A stretch of 64,000 nucleotides of DNA from Spirobacillus cienkowskii (GTDB taxonomy: Bacteria > Bdellovibrionota_B > Oligoflexia > Silvanigrellales > Silvanigrellaceae), in assembly GCF_037081835.1 (NCBI RefSeq), contig NZ_CP146516.1:1821501-1885500 (forward strand), read 5' to 3'. Below the pieces are notes generated by a model that saw only the letters and a list, made by a program, of their open reading frames with translations, searched no databases and was not told where the DNA came from. How positions within the stretch are numbered: position 1 is the first letter of the stretch; each line of letters begins with the position of its first letter. The position numbers and the translations under genes are program-made. Positions 54,906 to 63,545 of this stretch are shown here, piece by piece.

Positions 54906-55062
54906 TTTACGATAATTATGATAAAAATTAAATTTTCTATAGTTTTTAAATTTTAAAAACAAAAAAATTTATCGTTTTTTTGATATAAAATTAAAATTTT
55001 GGTTGCTTGACTAATTTTTTTGTAATAATTTGTTTTATGCAAAATAAACCTTGCAAAAAGCT

Positions 55063-55158
55063 AAAAAAATGGGAGCCCAAAAGCTCCCTAATTAGCATTA
55101 AATGCTTTCGAGCTTATCTCTTACTAAAACAAGCAGAGAATAAGACTTCTGATATGAT
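55063..55158 (-). ncRNA. tracrRNA of the type II CRISPR-Cas system
   Basis: The anti-repeat is 55123-55158; on the plus strand it equals the CRISPR repeat at 30 of 36 positions. Four differences are G to A (repeat positions 1, 4, 5 and 15), which keep G-U pairs only if the tracrRNA is the minus strand and crRNA the plus strand; the other two (TT to AA at 9-10) make a UU/UU internal loop, the expected bulge. After the anti-repeat come short hairpins (GCTCGAAAGC and GCATTTAATGC) and a terminator, GGGAGC-TTTTGG-GCTCCC then ATTTTTTT, ending near 55063. Predicted length is about 96 bases. It guides Cas9 and RNase III processing of crRNA. Confidence 0.87.
55150..55158 (+). promoter_or_regulatory. 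Extended -10 box in the anti-repeat, possible cas9 promoter
   Basis: TGATATGAT (TG-N-TATGAT, close to the extended -10 consensus) lies within the anti-repeat on the plus strand, with a predicted start near 55165, about 48 bases before the cas9 ATG. The same box ends each CRISPR repeat. The -35-like TTG of the repeat is AAG here, so the promoter may be weaker. Confidence 0.45.
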
Positions 55159-55164
55159 ATAAAA

Positions 55165-55193
55165 CTTTTACTTTAGTATAACAAAATTGTCAA
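55165..55193 (-). promoter_or_regulatory. tracrRNA promoter
   Basis: On the minus strand a perfect TTGACA (55188-55193) is followed after 17 bases by TAAAAG (55165-55170). The predicted start, about 7 bases on, falls at 55158, exactly the 5' end of the anti-repeat. This agreement supports both the promoter and the strand. Confidence 0.65.
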
Positions 55194-55212
55194 CACCAAA
55201 AGGAACTCTCTC

Positions 55213-58200
55213 ATGCTGCAAACAGAAACCACAAAAAAAACAACTGCAAATAATACGCTAGACACTAACAATTATACACTAGGCATCGACATGGGGGTTG
55301 CAAGCATTGGATATGCTATCATTGATGAATCCTCTAAAAAAATAATTCATATGGGAACACGTTGTTTTCCTTCTCCTGCAACCAATACCGACAACAATGC
55401 AGCGACAAGACGCCTTGCCCGGGCACAACGCCGAAACACAGCACGCAAAGTGATGCGGCGACATAAACTTTTTACTTATTTACAAAAACATTCTTTATTA
55501 CCTCCCTTTACTCAAACACAATTAGAAATGCTCCATGCGCCCATACCAACAGAATTTTGCACCGTTGCTTCTAAAAGACGCGAAATGGTTAGAAGGTATG
55601 CACAATTAAGAAATCAAATTATGACAAGCCTCGATGCAACCCTTTTTAAAGAGTGGTTAAATTTTTTAGAGCACCGCCCTCATTATGCAAAAACTTATTT
55701 AAAAAAACTTCCAAATATTTTTATATACTTTTTAAGATCTATTGCACTTGACGAACAAATTGATAAATATTCTTTAGGCCGTATTATTTATTTTTTTGGT
55801 CAAAGAAAAGGTTTTTTAAGCAACCGTAAAAATTTAGCAAAAGAATTAGAAGATGAGAAAAAAAATAAAATTAGCTCAGCAGTTAATAGTCTTGCAGGCC
55901 ACATACAAGAAACCAAATGTCGAACATTGGGGGAATATTTGGCCAAATATGTAGATATCAACAAAGAAACAATTAGAAAAAGATACACAGCAAGATCAAT
56001 GTATACCCATGAATACAATTTAATTATCAGTTCTCAAAATAGTTTAGTAAATAAAATAAAAAATGAATTTGATGACAATAGTGTTTTTGACACAATTTAC
56101 AAAATATTATTTTATCAAAGACCATTAAAATCTGTAAAAAAATTAATTGGAGGCTGTGAGTTAGAAGAGGTTTTATGTGGTAAAAAAAACATTAAAAGAG
56201 CAAAAAAATGTTTATTAACCTCGCAAGAATTTAGAATTTGGCAAAGTATAAATAACTTAAAAATTGTCTCAACGTCAAATGACCCATCAGAAAGAGAATT
56301 AAAACCTCATGAAAAAAATAGTATTTTTGATATTTGCCAAAAAAAGGCTGAAGTGAGTTTAGTTACATTAGCTAAAGATTTAAAACTTAAAAACGAAAAA
56401 TTTAAAAATGATATGTATTTTAATAAAAATAAGAAAAAAAGTGAAGATAAAAATGCTCCAACAGAAAGAAGAATTATAGGAAATAAAACCTTATCTAAAA
56501 TTGCGAGTACTTATAAAAAAATATTTGAATTAAGCAAATTAGAACAAGAAAAAATAATAAATGCAATTATAAGTTTTGATAACTCAGAAATTTTAAAAAA
56601 GTATTTTATAGAAAAAAAATCTATTCCAGAATTAGAGGCACAAAAACTCGCCAATATTTCTTTAGAAGATGGTTACTTAAACTATAGCAGCAAAGCAATC
56701 AAAAAACTTTTACCACATATGCAAAAAGGCGAAATGTTACACAAGGCTATAGTATCAGCAGGCTATGCAAACTCTAAAAATAATAAAATTCACGACCTTT
56801 TGCCTGCTTATGTCACAATAAACAAATATGGCAATAACCCTGCTGTGCTGCGATCTCTTTCGCAGTTGCGCCTTGTTGTGAATGCAATTATCAAAAAATA
56901 TGGCAAACCTAAAATAATAAGGGTTGAGCTTGCCCGAGATCTTAAATTATCGAATCAAGAAAAAAGTAAAATTTTTAAACAAAACAACGCAAATAAATTA
57001 GAAAATGAAAAAATTACTACAGAACTCAACGAAAAAAAAATTAATGTCTCTGCTTCTAACATAGAAAAATACAGACTTTGGCAAGAATGCAACTACCAAT
57101 GCCCTTATTCAGGAAATTGTATAGGATTTTTTGATTTATTTGGAGACAACCCAATATTTGATGTGGAGCACATTATACCACTGAGTAGAAGTTATGATGA
57201 CTCTTTTGCCAATAAAACACTTTGTCGAAATGATATAAATCGTAACAAAAAACAAAATTACACTCCATTTGAGGCTTTTTCAATCACAGATCCTGATGAA
57301 TACGAAAAAATTCTTATGCGTGTTGAAAAATTTAATTCTCCATTTAAATACAGAAAACTATTTCGCTTTAAAGAAAAAAATATTGATACAGAATTTATCG
57401 CCAGAATGCTCAATGACACACGGTATGCTTCAAAACTTGCAACGCAATATCTTGAGTTACTTTATGGTGGAATTGTTGATAGCGAACGCAGCCAGCGTGT
57501 TAGAGTTTCGTCGGGTCAGGTAACCGCAATTTTAAGAAAAAACTGGAAACTCAATAAACTGCTTTCGCAAGAAAATACCAAAACCAGACTTGACCACAGA
57601 CATCATGCCATTGATGCGTTGGTGATTGCGCTCACCAACGAAAGTGCAATAAAATTGATTAATAAATCAGCGTCTCGTGGCGAATTTAAGTATGAAAACA
57701 GATTTTCAAAAATTGAAATAATTTGGCCTGATTTATTGCAGCAAACCCAAAAACATCTTAATAAAATGCTAATATCTTTTTATATTTCTCCTAAAATTAA
57801 TGCGCTTCTCCATGAAGAGACAATATTAAGCAAAAAAAATGAGAATTTTTATTATAGAAAAAATATTAATGAAATTAAAAGCTATATAAATAATACAAAA
57901 AAATATGATAAATTTGTTTTAGATCCAGCTTTAACAAATATAATTAAAAATAAATACAACGAAAATATTTTAAGTCAAACCAAAATTACAAATACTAATA
58001 CAGTTATTTTTGATCAAACCAAAATTGACACTCTCCCCTATTTAACTGTTAAAAACTCTTCAAACAAAACAAGCCCATTTGCCAAAGAAGCAAATGATAA
58101 AATTTATGTTAAATCATTTCGTAATAAAACTGATAATACAGAAAATTCTGTACTTGAAATTGGCACAGGCATTCAAAAAAGATATGTTGCAAAAAATTAT

Positions 58201-58557
58201 TACCATCATATTTCTGTATTTTCTACTAATAAAAAAGACATACATGATATTATATTTAGCAAATATCTTGATGTTATGAACAGAAAAAAATCAGGACAAA
58301 AAATTATAGTAAAAAAACACCATAATGATCCAGAAGCAAAATTTTTATTTTATTTAAAAAAATCTGATATTTTTGAAATAGAAGAAAATGGAGTCAAACA
58401 ATATTATATAATCATAGGTTTTGAAGCAGATAATAGAATAAAATACTCTCACATATATGATGCTCAAAAAAAACCTACTAGAAAAAGCATCAATAATTTA
58501 TTAAAAATGAAATTTAAAAAACTTAAAATTTCGCCTTTAGGAGAAATTTTACAGTAA
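55213..58557 (+). CDS. cas9: CRISPR-associated endonuclease Cas9 (type II-C-like)
   Basis: RNA-guided double-strand DNA nuclease. The 1,114 residues match compact II-C Cas9 proteins. Catalytic residues are all present: RuvC-I Asp26 in TLGIDMGVASIGYA, an Arg-rich bridge helix (AATRRLARAQRRNTARKVMRR, residues about 60-82), RuvC-II Glu572 in RVELARDLKLS, the HNH His653 in FDVEHIIPLSRSYDDS with the following Asn in FANKTLC, and RuvC-III His797-798 and Asp801 in HRHHAIDALVIAL. HNH is preceded by CPYSGNCIGFFDLFG. AAGGAA precedes the ATG. tracrRNA lies divergently upstream and the array directly downstream; no csn2 or cas4 is present. Confidence 0.96.
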   Translation: MLQTETTKKTTANNTLDTNNYTLGIDMGVASIGYAIIDESSKKIIHMGTRCFPSPATNTDNNAATRRLARAQRRNTARKVMRRHKLFTYLQKHSLLPPFTQTQLEMLHAPIPTEFCTVASKRREMVRRYAQLRNQIMTSLDATLFKEWLNFLEHRPHYAKTYLKKLPNIFIYFLRSIALDEQIDKYSLGRIIYFFGQRKGFLSNRKNLAKELEDEKKNKISSAVNSLAGHIQETKCRTLGEYLAKYVDINKETIRKRYTARSMYTHEYNLIISSQNSLVNKIKNEFDDNSVFDTIYKILFYQRPLKSVKKLIGGCELEEVLCGKKNIKRAKKCLLTSQEFRIWQSINNLKIVSTSNDPSERELKPHEKNSIFDICQKKAEVSLVTLAKDLKLKNEKFKNDMYFNKNKKKSEDKNAPTERRIIGNKTLSKIASTYKKIFELSKLEQEKIINAIISFDNSEILKKYFIEKKSIPELEAQKLANISLEDGYLNYSSKAIKKLLPHMQKGEMLHKAIVSAGYANSKNNKIHDLLPAYVTINKYGNNPAVLRSLSQLRLVVNAIIKKYGKPKIIRVELARDLKLSNQEKSKIFKQNNANKLENEKITTELNEKKINVSASNIEKYRLWQECNYQCPYSGNCIGFFDLFGDNPIFDVEHIIPLSRSYDDSFANKTLCRNDINRNKKQNYTPFEAFSITDPDEYEKILMRVEKFNSPFKYRKLFRFKEKNIDTEFIARMLNDTRYASKLATQYLELLYGGIVDSERSQRVRVSSGQVTAILRKNWKLNKLLSQENTKTRLDHRHHAIDALVIALTNESAIKLINKSASRGEFKYENRFSKIEIIWPDLLQQTQKHLNKMLISFYISPKINALLHEETILSKKNENFYYRKNINEIKSYINNTKKYDKFVLDPALTNIIKNKYNENILSQTKITNTNTVIFDQTKIDTLPYLTVKNSSNKTSPFAKEANDKIYVKSFRNKTDNTENSVLEIGTGIQKRYVAKNYYHHISVFSTNKKDIHDIIFSKYLDVMNRKKSGQKIIVKKHHNDPEAKFLFYLKKSDIFEIEENGVKQYYIIIGFEADNRIKYSHIYDAQKKPTRKSINNLLKMKFKKLKISPLGEILQ

Positions 58558-58566
58558 GCAGTTTAT

Positions 58567-59131
58567 TTTATGTATTGTAGGGAATAAGACTTCTGATATG
58601 ATTGTAACGCTCTCCCTTAAAAACCCAATTTGGCTGGAACTTGCAGGGAATAAGACTTCTGATATGATTCAGAAACTATCGAATGATTTACAATCACCCG
58701 CTGGAACTTGCAGGGAATAAGACTTCTGATATGATTGCCATTATCAACTCTTCGACCGCTATCTGGCTGGAACTTGCAGGGAATAAGACTTCTGATATGA
58801 TAATTTTTAGTGAAAGCAGGAAGTGGACTTGGCTGGAACTTGCAGGGAATAAGACTTCTGATATGATTTTTAGACCAATCTGCTTGTCCTTTTTTTTGCT
58901 GGAACTTGCAGGGAATAAGACTTCTGATATGATTAAGCGCGTGATGCGTCTCTATCAACTTTAGCTGGAACTTGCAGGGAATAAGACTTCTGATATGATA
59001 CCAACTGTTAAGCTTCCTTTCTGTAGTTCGCTGGAACTTGCAGGGAATAAGACTTCTGATATGATTGTTGCTGTTTGATTAAAATCGCCTGTATCGCTGG
59101 AACTTGCAGGGAATAAGACTTCTGATATGAT
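58567..59131 (+). CRISPR. CRISPR array, 9 repeats and 8 spacers
   Basis: Repeats are 36 bases, GCTGGAACTTGCAGGG followed by AATAAGACTTCTGATATGAT. They start at 58567 (degenerate), 58633, 58700, 58766, 58832, 58898, 58964, 59030 and 59096. Repeats 2-9 are identical. Repeat 1 has lost its first 8 bases but keeps TTG-T/C-AGGG and everything after. Spacers are 30 bases, except the second (31). TracrRNA wobble pairs and a terminator after the last repeat place crRNA on the plus strand. The TTGCAG and extended -10 TGATATGAT in each repeat, 16 bases apart, form a promoter-like unit that would start each crRNA inside its own spacer, as in Neisseria type II-C systems. Confidence 0.97.
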
Positions 59132-59134
59132 AGA

Positions 59135-59170
59135 CCCGTCAATAACTTACTAATTATTGACGGGATTTTT
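59135..59170 (+). terminator. Terminator directly after the CRISPR array
   Basis: CCCGTCAATAA pairs perfectly with TTATTGACGGG around an 8-base loop, followed by ATTTTTTTATTTTT. It starts 3 bases after the last repeat and ends plus-strand array transcripts. On the minus strand the hairpin has no T run, so cas1-cas2 transcripts may read through into the array as antisense RNA. Confidence 0.88.
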
Positions 59171-59182
59171 TTATTTTTAGAG

Positions 59183-59524
59183 CTAAAAAAGGAGTATTTC
59201 GGGTAGTGGTTCTTCTGTTTTTTCTTTGTTTTTTCCAAAAAATACTTTTTGCTTACCAAATTGCCTGTCTGTCACCAGCAACAGCCTAACCTGCCCAGAT
59301 GGCGGTAATCGTTCTTCAATAAATTTTTGAGTACTTATACTTGCATCTTCGCTCGGAAAGTAAATTGCATACACAGAGTACTGCAACATACTAAATCCTT
59401 TTGATATGAGTAATTTTCTAAATTTTGCATAGGCTTTTCTTTGTTTTTTAGTTTTGGTTGGCAAGTCAAATAAAGCAAACAACCACACAGCAGAATACGC
59501 TCCAGAAATTTTTACCAAACTCAT
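59183..59524 (-). CDS. cas2: CRISPR-associated endoribonuclease/integration protein Cas2
   Basis: Structural partner of Cas1 in the spacer integrase. The ferredoxin-like fold is seen in AVWLFALFDLPTKTKKQRKAYAKFRKLLISKGF with the conserved Asp near residue 20, then MLQYSVYAIYFPSEDAS and VRLLLVTDRQFGKQKVF. Its 113 residues are normal for type II Cas2; the tail (EKTEEPLPEILLF) is acidic. It lies 33 bases after cas1 on the same strand and runs toward the array, ending 52 bases from the last repeat. Confidence 0.94.
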   Translation of the reverse strand: MSLVKISGAYSAVWLFALFDLPTKTKKQRKAYAKFRKLLISKGFSMLQYSVYAIYFPSEDASISTQKFIEERLPPSGQVRLLLVTDRQFGKQKVFFGKNKEKTEEPLPEILLF

Positions 59525-59557
59525 AATGTTATTTTCTTAATGTAATTTATTAAAATA

Positions 59558-60451
59558 TTATTTTATTAAATTCGGAAGAAATAAGCTTACTTGTCCTGTA
59601 ACAAATGCCTTGCTCAAAGATTGCGCTGACAAGGTAATAATATCCTGCAGCTGGCGCTCTTCTTGATCAACAGTAAATTTTTTATATAATACTGCAATCA
59701 GCCTTTGTTTAATGTCTTGCGTTAATTTATTTTCAGTAAAGTTTTCTGCTTCTACAATTAAAAAAACCTCTCGGTCAATAATAGGACGAAATGGTTCCAT
59801 TAAATCATCTGCCAAACAAAAAGGATTGTATTTCCCTTTATGAAATACACCAATTGATGGGTTTAATCCGCAAGCACACAAACTCCTCGCTACCACAGCT
59901 CTAAGCACGGCATACCCATAATTTAAAAACATATTTTCATTTTCTGCTGTAATATCTCTTTTAAATTGTTTATTTTTACAAATGTTTTTCCAGTATATAA
60001 TTGCTGCTTGCGCTTCTAAATTACCCTCGTCACCACTTTTTACTTTTTTACACAAATCTAAAAGCCCAAAATGCTCTTCTCTTCTGTTTAAAAGTAAATA
60101 GCCTTGGGCTTCAATTTTTTTAGCAATAATTTTTTTCCAAAGTTGCTTTTTAAAAGGAAGGGTTGCAAGAATTTGTTTAGCAAAACGCTGCGTTTGCACC
60201 GAGTGTGCCACCAAAGGTAACAGCATCCCAATAGGCATATGTTTGGTATCACAGCAAACAAATATACACCCGTATTCTGCTAATTTTGCTAATACAGCGT
60301 GCGTATAATTTACCGCTGGCGATGAGACAATAAGCGCAGAGATTTCTGCAAACGGGACTGTAACTTTATTACTGGATTCTATGACCAAAAGCTCACTAAA
60401 AGAAGAAAGCCTTACATTTTGTATAGAAATATCAATAATTCTCTTAATCAT
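59558..60451 (-). CDS. cas1: CRISPR-associated integrase Cas1
   Basis: Integrates new spacers at the array with Cas2. Type II Cas1 features are IDISIQNVRLSSFSELLVI at the N-terminus, LIVSSPAVNYTHAVLAKLAEYG, the catalytic Glu in EGNLEAQAAIIYWK near residue 150, and the His and Asp in NPSIGVFHKGKYNPFCLADDLMEPFRP. The 297 residues are standard. There is no Shine-Dalgarno sequence before its ATG; the stop of the upstream small gene is only 5 bases away, so cas1 translation probably depends on that gene. Order is small gene, cas1, cas2. Confidence 0.95.
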   Translation of the reverse strand: MIKRIIDISIQNVRLSSFSELLVIESSNKVTVPFAEISALIVSSPAVNYTHAVLAKLAEYGCIFVCCDTKHMPIGMLLPLVAHSVQTQRFAKQILATLPFKKQLWKKIIAKKIEAQGYLLLNRREEHFGLLDLCKKVKSGDEGNLEAQAAIIYWKNICKNKQFKRDITAENENMFLNYGYAVLRAVVARSLCACGLNPSIGVFHKGKYNPFCLADDLMEPFRPIIDREVFLIVEAENFTENKLTQDIKQRLIAVLYKKFTVDQEERQLQDIITLSAQSLSKAFVTGQVSLFLPNLIK

Positions 60452-60456
60452 TACAA

Positions 60457-60825
60457 TTAATGGGAAATTTTTTTAATAAAATGCGAGGAAATACTTTTAA
60501 CATTTGCCTCATCAAACACGTCGCAGGCCAATTGAAAATCATCAATATCTAAAAAACCTTTTTCATTGAGCACGTCTTTAAGTTTATGAAACGAATCCAC
60601 CAACATAGCATTTTGATCCAATAGACCGTCCATTTCGGCTCTTAGCTTGCACACCTCGCCACCTATTCTTGTAATGCTATCTAAAATTTGCTCTATTTGT
60701 TTGACCAAGTTTGAATTGAAACTGTGATCATCAGCAATATTAGTCAAAGTGTCCAAATCAAGAGCGTAGCCATCTAAATTTTCGTCTGCAAACTCATCAA
60801 ATAATTCTTGAGGGGTGTTAGACAT
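60457..60825 (-). CDS. Small acidic coiled-coil protein coupled to cas1, unknown
   Basis: A 122-residue acidic protein (MSNTPQELFDEFADENLDG...) I do not recognise. Residues 45-95 are helical with coiled-coil character (LVKQIEQILDSITRIGGEV, CKLRAEMDGLLDQ, then FHKLKDVLNEKG); the ends are acidic. No membrane segment or catalytic motif is seen. The ATG at 60825 follows GGAAGGA at ideal distance; a GTG 15 bases earlier is also in frame. It ends 5 bases before cas1, which has no ribosome-binding site of its own, so the two are very likely co-expressed. It may be an adaptation accessory or regulator, or a host gene that happens to drive cas1-cas2. Confidence 0.6.
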   Translation of the reverse strand: MSNTPQELFDEFADENLDGYALDLDTLTNIADDHSFNSNLVKQIEQILDSITRIGGEVCKLRAEMDGLLDQNAMLVDSFHKLKDVLNEKGFLDIDDFQLACDVFDEANVKSISSHFIKKISH

Positions 60826-61017
60826 TTCACTTCCTTCCACTTAGCGTCTACATTGTGCTCTATTTCAGATCTTTCTACTTGTCGGAAGGGAATAAATTGA
60901 AATAAGAGGAAAGAATTGGTTGTCTGTCTCTAAAATTGGCGCAGCTCCACAATGTATGTTAAATGTCTGTTGGTTTTTAGCTGTTTTTATTTTGTTTGAA
61001 AGGATAAATTCTGAATC

Positions 61018-63495
61018 ATGTTAAATATTCTCAAGTCTCTCTTTGGAACGAAAAACGATCGAGAATTGCGTAAAATTGCACCTATTCTAACAAAAATAAA
61101 CTTACTCGAATCTCATTTAGAAAAGCTGACAGATTCTGAGCTTAAAGCCAAAACAGATGAGTTTAAAACACGTCATAAAAGCGGTGAAAGCATTGATAGC
61201 CTTTTGCCAGAGGCTTTTGCTGTAGTCAGAGAGGCCAGTAAACGTAGCTTAGGAAAAAGACATTTTGATGTGCAGTTAATTGGCGGCTATGTTTTACATC
61301 AAGGCAAAATTGCCGAAATGCGCACCGGCGAAGGAAAAACTCTTACCGCTACGGCACCAGTTTACCTCAACGCGTTATCAGGAAAAAACGTTCATGTTGT
61401 CACAGTCAACGAGTATCTTGCCTCTACGCAATCTGAAGAAATGGGAAAATTATATAGTTTCTTAGGACTAACGACTGGCTGCATTTTTTCTGGAATGTCT
61501 GATGAAGAACGCCAAAAAGCCTATGCCTGTGATGTTACCTACGCAACCAACAATGAACTTGGTTTTGATTACTTACGAGATAATATGAAAGTTCGTTTAG
61601 AAGACTTTGTGCAACGCGGACATCATTTTGCCATTGTTGACGAAGTGGATTCTATTTTAATTGATGAAGCACGTACCCCACTGATTATTAGTGGCCCATC
61701 CGACACCTCATCAGACAAGTATGTTGTTGCCAATAATGCGGTGAGAGGATTGCGCAAAGAACTCGATTACACTGTTGACGAAAAATCACGTTCCTGTGCA
61801 TTAACCGAAGCCGGCATTGCAAAAGTTGAAAAACGCCTCAATATCGAAAATCTTTTTGATCCAGAAAATAACGAGTTGGTGCATGCTTGCAACAATGCGT
61901 TACGAGCGCTTGTCTTATTTAGACGTGATGATCACTATATTGTACAACAAGGTCAAATTATTATTGTCGATGAATTTACAGGCCGCTTAATGCAAGGCAG
62001 ACGCTTCTCTGATGGCCTGCACCAAGCCTTAGAAGCCAAAGAAAATGTACCAATTCAACCAGAAAACCAAACCCTTGCTCAAGTCACATTACAAAACTAC
62101 TTTCGTATGTATGACAAGCTATCAGGTATGACAGGAACAGCAGATACTGAAGCCGTAGAATTTCATAACATTTATAAACTCAACGTTGTGGTCATTCCAA
62201 CCAACCGCCCGATGGTTCGTAAAGATCATGATGATGTGTTATTTGTAAAACAATCTGTTAAATTTACAGCCGTTGCCGATGAAATTGAGCGCGTTCATAA
62301 AACAGGACAACCTATTTTGGTTGGTACAGTGAGTATTGAAAAAAGCGAACAGTTATCAAAACTGCTCAACGAGAAAAAAATCCCGCATCAAGTATTAAAC
62401 GCAAAACACCACGAACAAGAAGCTTTAATCATTGCGCAAGCAGGACAAAAAGGCAAAGTGACCCTTTCTACCAACATGGCAGGGCGCGGTACAGATATTA
62501 TTCTTGGCGCAGGAGTTGCAGAACTTGGCGGACTTTACGTCATTGGTACCGAACGCCACGAAAGCCGTCGTATTGACAATCAGTTGCGTGGACGTTCTGG
62601 ACGCCAAGGCGATCCTGGTGCTAGCAAGTTTTTCTTATCATGGGAAGATGAGCTCATGCGCCGCTTTAATAATAAAGCCAACCAATTTATTATGGAACGC
62701 TTTGTTGGTGACGAAGCCATTCATGATCCAAGGCTCACAAAAGTCATTAGCAAAGTGCAAAAACGGGTTGAAGGATTTAACTACGATATTAGAAAACAAC
62801 TTCTCCAATATGATGATGTGTTAAATCAACAACGCAAAACCATTTATGCAGCGCGCATGAGAATTTTACGCAAAGAAAATGTAAAAGACATTTTAACAGG
62901 CGAACCTGTTATAAAGTTTGCCCATACAATATGTGATGACTTTATACCGCCATCTGGCTTGCCAGGAGAAATGGTCACAATTGACTTTAAAAACTTGGAA
63001 CGCGTATTGTTTAGAAATTTTAATAAAGCTATCCCATTTTCAAATACAGAAAGAGCTAAAAACGAACTCACTCGCGAAGAGTTTTATCAGCTTATTACGC
63101 AAAAACTCATTCAAGAGTACGAAGAAAAAGAAAAACTGTTTGGCACTGAGCAAATGCGCGATATTGAACGCTGGGTCATGCTGCAAACAATTGACTCGTG
63201 GTGGAAAGATCATTTATTAAATATCGATCACTTAAAAGATGGTATTGGCTTACGTGGTTATGCACAAAAAGATCCGCTGCAAGAATATAAAAATGAAGCT
63301 TTTGAATTATTTATAAGACTTATTGCTGCTATAAAGCAAGATACTCTGCAAATGATTTATAGAGTGCAGCCTAATTTAGCTGAAAAATTTGTGGCAGAGG
63401 CGCGTGAAGAAGCTGAAAAAAAATCAAAAAATGAGCTTAAAAATTCGAACTTAAAACACGATGATCCCAAACGCTTAATGCAACCTACTACTTAA
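61018..63495 (+). CDS. secA: Preprotein translocase ATPase SecA
   Basis: Motor that drives unfolded preproteins through SecYEG. Nucleotide-binding motifs: EMRTGEGKTLTAT (Walker A, near residue 105), FAIVDEVDSILIDEARTPLIISG (DEAD region), TNMAGRGTDIILG and QLRGRSGRQGDPG in the second helicase domain; the scaffold helix and wing follow. MLNILKSLFGTKNDRELR is the usual N-terminus. At 825 residues it is shorter than E. coli SecA (901) and ends in a Lys/Asn-rich tail without the C-terminal zinc-binding Cys-rich motif, so SecB binding by that tail is unlikely. It is divergent from the small gene before cas1. Confidence 0.97.
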   Translation: MLNILKSLFGTKNDRELRKIAPILTKINLLESHLEKLTDSELKAKTDEFKTRHKSGESIDSLLPEAFAVVREASKRSLGKRHFDVQLIGGYVLHQGKIAEMRTGEGKTLTATAPVYLNALSGKNVHVVTVNEYLASTQSEEMGKLYSFLGLTTGCIFSGMSDEERQKAYACDVTYATNNELGFDYLRDNMKVRLEDFVQRGHHFAIVDEVDSILIDEARTPLIISGPSDTSSDKYVVANNAVRGLRKELDYTVDEKSRSCALTEAGIAKVEKRLNIENLFDPENNELVHACNNALRALVLFRRDDHYIVQQGQIIIVDEFTGRLMQGRRFSDGLHQALEAKENVPIQPENQTLAQVTLQNYFRMYDKLSGMTGTADTEAVEFHNIYKLNVVVIPTNRPMVRKDHDDVLFVKQSVKFTAVADEIERVHKTGQPILVGTVSIEKSEQLSKLLNEKKIPHQVLNAKHHEQEALIIAQAGQKGKVTLSTNMAGRGTDIILGAGVAELGGLYVIGTERHESRRIDNQLRGRSGRQGDPGASKFFLSWEDELMRRFNNKANQFIMERFVGDEAIHDPRLTKVISKVQKRVEGFNYDIRKQLLQYDDVLNQQRKTIYAARMRILRKENVKDILTGEPVIKFAHTICDDFIPPSGLPGEMVTIDFKNLERVLFRNFNKAIPFSNTERAKNELTREEFYQLITQKLIQEYEEKEKLFGTEQMRDIERWVMLQTIDSWWKDHLLNIDHLKDGIGLRGYAQKDPLQEYKNEAFELFIRLIAAIKQDTLQMIYRVQPNLAEKFVAEAREEAEKKSKNELKNSNLKHDDPKRLMQPTT

Positions 63496-63545
63496 TATCT
63501 AAAAAAAATTTATTATTTTAAATACTTTTAAAATTTTGTTTTTAC

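Follow-up and report, generated by a model that had tools for sequence, protein, structure and literature searches.

A conserved host gene lies directly upstream of cas1-cas2 in a rearranged type II-C CRISPR locus of Spirobacillus cienkowskii

The stretch of Spirobacillus cienkowskii DNA analyzed here (64,000 nucleotides, hereafter the window) carries a type II-C CRISPR locus next to a small gene, termed X, and the divergently transcribed secA gene (Table 1). Cas9, a type II Cas1 and Cas2 were identified with the profiles TIGR01865 (595.6 bits, cut-off 100), TIGR03639 (266.5 bits, cut-off 120) and TIGR01573 (59.9 bits, cut-off 24.5), respectively, and profile searches gave no match to Csn2 or Cas4 among the locus genes tested. 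The initial sequence-only reading of the locus as type II-C-like was confirmed. The S. cienkowskii genome paper already reports one type I-F and one type II-C system (PMC12321486). A second CRISPR locus of the same genome, with its own Cas1 and array (L087, G000:C1:2322001-2342000), is presumably the type I-F system.

The locus resembles other type II-C systems in having cas9, cas1 and cas2 only, in the 36-nt repeats and spacers of about 30 nt, in a leader located between cas2 and the array, in a tracrRNA anti-repeat placed before cas9, and in repeats ending in a -10-like TATGAT that is transcribed against cas1-cas2 (PMC4607530; PMC6008519). The repeat end, TGATATGAT, is an extended -10-like box of the kind described for type II-C repeats (PMC4607530), and each repeat may therefore start its own crRNA. 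Unlike type II-C systems in general, the window locus has cas9 and cas1-cas2 converging on the array, the block of cas1, cas2 and array being inverted relative to cas9, and cas1 is located behind a host gene. The AbrB/MazE-type antitoxin-like gene between the lipoprotein-like gene and the tracrRNA has no obvious toxin alongside. An IS200/IS605-like end sequence beginning with ACCAGAAACGAACGTA recurs near position 63545, behind secA. An Rfam search of positions 54900-61100 gave no match.

Table 1. Positions of genes and other features at the type II-C locus and its flanks in the window.
Feature	Position	Strand	Remarks
ABC permease and ATPase	50283-51791	plus	Reach the 3' end of X in congeners (2-9 nt in four of five)
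IS200/IS605 element	51887-53795	plus	tnpA and guided TnpB; missing in second strain
Lipoprotein-like gene	53844-54578	plus	Part of inserted stretch
AbrB/MazE-like gene	54645-54905	plus	Part of inserted stretch
Probable tracrRNA	55060-55158	minus	Anti-repeat 55123-55158, then terminator-like hairpin near 55070 (by eye)
cas9	55213-58557	plus	TIGR01865; convergent with cas1-cas2
CRISPR array	58567-59131	plus	8 intact 36-nt repeats and 8 spacers; a further repeat, nearest cas9, is degenerate
Array leader side	59132-59182		From cas2 to the first intact repeat; no difference between the two strains in the compared part
cas2	59183-59524	minus	TIGR01573
cas1 (type II)	59558-60451	minus	TIGR03639; start ATGATT, no Shine-Dalgarno (SD) site
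Gap between X stop and cas1 start	60452-60456	minus	TTGTA, 5 nt; rearrangement junction
X	60457-60825	minus	122-aa acidic protein, predicted coiled coil, conserved host gene (open reading frame, homologues, AlphaFold2)
X/secA divergent intergenic region	60826-61017		Five congeners share the X SD site and several sequence blocks
secA	61018-63495	plus	Ancestral neighbour of X

Gene X is read from the minus strand, with an ATG at position 60825 and a TAA stop codon at 60459-60457, and encodes a protein of 122 aa with a pI of 4.29. The coordinates, length and acidic character first assigned to it were right. In the AlphaFold2 model the protein forms one long helix (residues 36-89, with a block of pLDDT 90-98 over residues 41-80) and a second helix (residues 94-117), and has disordered ends. 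The predicted long helix is consistent with a coiled coil and agrees with the first description of the protein. Five congeners carry X at full length with 73-75% identity, which identifies it as a real gene. The ribosome-binding site of X, AGTGGAAGGAAGTGAAATG, had a duplex energy of -5.5 kcal/mol; this is fair by the standards of the genome, and not excellent as originally claimed. The SD site is kept in the congeners together with the intergenic blocks, which argues that the expression signals of X are older than its CRISPR neighbour. A hairpin that would hide the SD site in the X leader (CCTTCC...GGAAGG) appeared in the alignment fold but was broken in one genome (G004) and was not consistently better than shuffles, the window fragment tested having cut off part of the stem; it was discarded.

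No match above cut-off was found for X in PADLOC, Pfam or NCBIfam, and we rejected the idea that it is a Cas or defence protein not yet named. A PDB profile search returned coiled-coil proteins of no family meaning. YabA (PF06156) and ZapB (PF06005) are, like X, short helical proteins with weak profile matches to some members of the X family. The best YabA match among family members was 0.0032, and the ZapB profile matched four of 22 homologues (best E 0.00025), with X itself not among the matches listed. All matches to X itself were far below the Pfam cut-off (for YabA 15.1 bits compared to 30) and the likeness is probably coiled-coil similarity only; the YabA identity was rejected, and the ZapB identity is improbable.

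X was found in 12 other Silvanigrellales genomes (five of the same genus, six of the same family and one of the same order) with 43-75% identity, and in 11 of these it adjoins secA divergently. The exception is a genome of the same family, G007, where X is located away from secA. No cas genes were present near X in the stretches fetched from the 12 genomes, two same-family contigs being shorter than 6 kb. Searching the phylum with a family profile identified X in 44 of 58 genomes, almost all of them with one copy. At least 33 of the 44 are without any Cas1, a count based on the 42 that were covered by both the profile search and the Cas1 survey. Outside Silvanigrellales, X is found in another conserved neighbourhood in most genomes examined. 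Common to the family are a central LGxE motif and a later EKG...DDF segment, and most homologues, down to about 25% identity, end in KKxx[HN]. The conserved C-terminus suggests a binding tip for some partner. The S. cienkowskii protein has the KKxxH end of its congeners, and its identity of 73-75% to them, compared to 64-98% among the congeners themselves, gives no sign of faster evolution. Judged from these comparisons, X is not a CRISPR gene but belongs to the host, being inherited vertically, as a single copy, in Silvanigrellales and the wider phylum.

The neighbourhood on the other side of X differs between the window and the congeners. In four congeners the stop codons of the ABC-ATPase gene and X are 2-9 nt apart, and the fifth has an extra gene between them. 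At the same junction in the window 8.7 kb intervenes, comprising the IS200/IS605 element, the lipoprotein-like gene, the AbrB-like gene, cas9, the array, cas2 and cas1. The IS200/IS605 element is missing in a second S. cienkowskii strain and is therefore a later addition.

We compared the gene order to that of type II-C loci with a related cas1. In 10 of 10 distant loci, from gammaproteobacteria and one Parcubacteria genome, cas9 and cas1 are in line, and a locus in the same-genus genome G003 (L085) also has the order cas9-cas1-cas2. Among these 11 loci cas1 overlaps the 3' end of cas9 by 4-20 nt in nine, and cas2 follows next after cas1 wherever the contig showed cas2 complete. X is absent from all 10 distant loci and from the G003 locus. 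The usual type II-C order of cas9-cas1-cas2, which is typical without being strictly defining, is not found in the window, where cas9 runs toward the array and cas2-cas1 run toward it from the opposite side and on the opposite strand.

The G003 locus is the closest comparison within the genus, its Cas proteins being 68% (cas1), 74% (cas2) and 40% (cas9) identical to those of the window. Its repeat is related and faces the same way as in the window with respect to cas1, and its cas1 starts with ATGA. It differs from the window locus by the normal gene order, by cas1 overlapping cas9 by 4 nt (ATGA) and by its location at another genomic site, and X of G003 stays beside secA without cas genes. 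Given this shared orientation of repeat and cas1, the whole cas1-cas2-leader-array block is inverted relative to cas9 in the window. The Cas9 C-terminus, ISPLGEILQ in the window and ISPIGEIYECSE in G003, differs only where the breakpoint would lie, and this fits an inversion breakpoint. By this comparison cas1 has exchanged its upstream partner, losing cas9 and gaining X. Either the block or cas9 may have been flipped, before or after arrival of the locus.

A cas1 search identified the same locus in the second strain, Candidatus Spirobacillus cienkowskii QOVW01000063.1, and the X-cas1 junction is letter-for-letter identical in both genomes. The arrays have only the degenerate repeat at the cas9 end and the adjoining, oldest spacer in common, whereas all remaining spacers (seven in the window strain, four in the second strain) are different. 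Since the arrangement is the same and only the oldest spacer is common, acquisition has probably continued after the arrangement was formed. New spacers probably enter at the cas2 side, which is where they enter in the type II-C system of Riemerella (PMC6008519). The turnover could include loss and recombination and not acquisition alone. Cas9 of the two strains (L074 for the second) is about 95% identical at the amino acid level, compared to 99.7% for cas1 and 99.9% for secA. The Cas9 differences are concentrated at residues 481-540 and 901-1080, of which the second stretch is probably the PAM-interacting end; they could have arisen by recombination or by selection on target recognition.

At the junction (TAA-TTGTA-ATGATT) the stop codon of X is located 5 nt before the ATG of cas1, and the cas1 start shows no SD pairing (+2.9 kcal/mol); the sequence-only reading was accurate on both points. 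Weak SD sites were also found for cas2 (-0.1 kcal/mol) and for several ordinary genes in the window, so the absence of an SD site alone is no proof of coupling. No terminator was found between X and cas1. A promoter search upstream of cas1 gave matches at chance level only, among them one 9-of-12 match within X (60755-60727).

We consider it likely that X is a host gene, and that cas1-cas2, inverted relative to cas9 and now behind X, use the transcription and perhaps the translation of X. On this reading, a type II-C locus settled between X and the ABC-transporter genes in the S. cienkowskii lineage, and the cas1-cas2-leader-array block became inverted relative to cas9. The inversion moved cas1 from the cas9 end, where genes usually overlap and cas1 can do without a strong ribosome site, to 5 nt behind the X stop codon. 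A single transcript from the X promoter most likely covers X-cas1-cas2, and ribosomes finishing X may re-initiate on cas1, at least partly. Coupling is suggested by the 5-nt gap, the missing SD site and terminator, the chance-level promoter matches and the ancestral position of cas1 directly behind a coding sequence. The proposal that cas1-cas2 exploit a host gene is therefore supported in its anatomy and by the comparison with relatives, while co-expression is the part that we infer.

It is unlikely that X is a mere bystander alongside which cas1-cas2 landed, with a weak promoter and start of their own and no coupling. A missing SD site is not rare in the window, so cas1 could be translated alone, and there is the weak promoter-like site inside X; however, the genes are a mere 5 nt apart with no terminator between them, and cas1 starts without any SD site. 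With cas9, its ancestral partner, cas1 had likewise overlapped, which suggests a start dependent on an upstream ribosome. We regard it as highly improbable that X is a new protein of the adaptation module, aiding or regulating spacer acquisition in place of Csn2 or Cas4 as the sequence-only reading had proposed. Its position and probable co-expression with cas1 are what speak for such a role. Against it, X is phylum-wide, found mostly without Cas1, located beside secA in relatives as a host gene, missing from related type II-C loci and without a match to any PADLOC model; it evolves no faster in S. cienkowskii, and the type II-C system of Riemerella acquires spacers without Csn2 or Cas4 (PMC6008519). 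Homologues beside secA in CRISPR-free relatives had been named as evidence against a helper; X was found beside secA in relatives with no cas genes nearby, and at the level of sequence this refutes it. We infer no part for X in spacer acquisition itself.

Very doubtful, too, is a secondary recruitment, in which X would keep its host role and in addition interact with Cas1-Cas2, or in which its regulation would tie acquisition to the growth or secretion state of the cell. If co-transcribed, the acquisition genes would follow the regulation of X, but X shows no sequence sign of change and its KKxxH end is that of the congeners. There is similarly little probability that a chance placement was kept because it let a housekeeping gene beside secA control acquisition, or that X touches Cas1-Cas2 in this one species.

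What is new here is modest, namely an inverted type II-C architecture and the exchange of the upstream partner of cas1. It illustrates that adjacency to cas1 can mislead, since a gene that looked like a new Cas candidate proved, on comparison with relatives, to belong to the host. The S. cienkowskii locus represents a natural case of adaptation genes that are without their usual partner cas9, located behind a housekeeping gene and apparently still acquiring spacers. It offers a way to test whether cas1 needs an upstream ribosome for its expression, and whether uncoupling from cas9 alters the level of acquisition.
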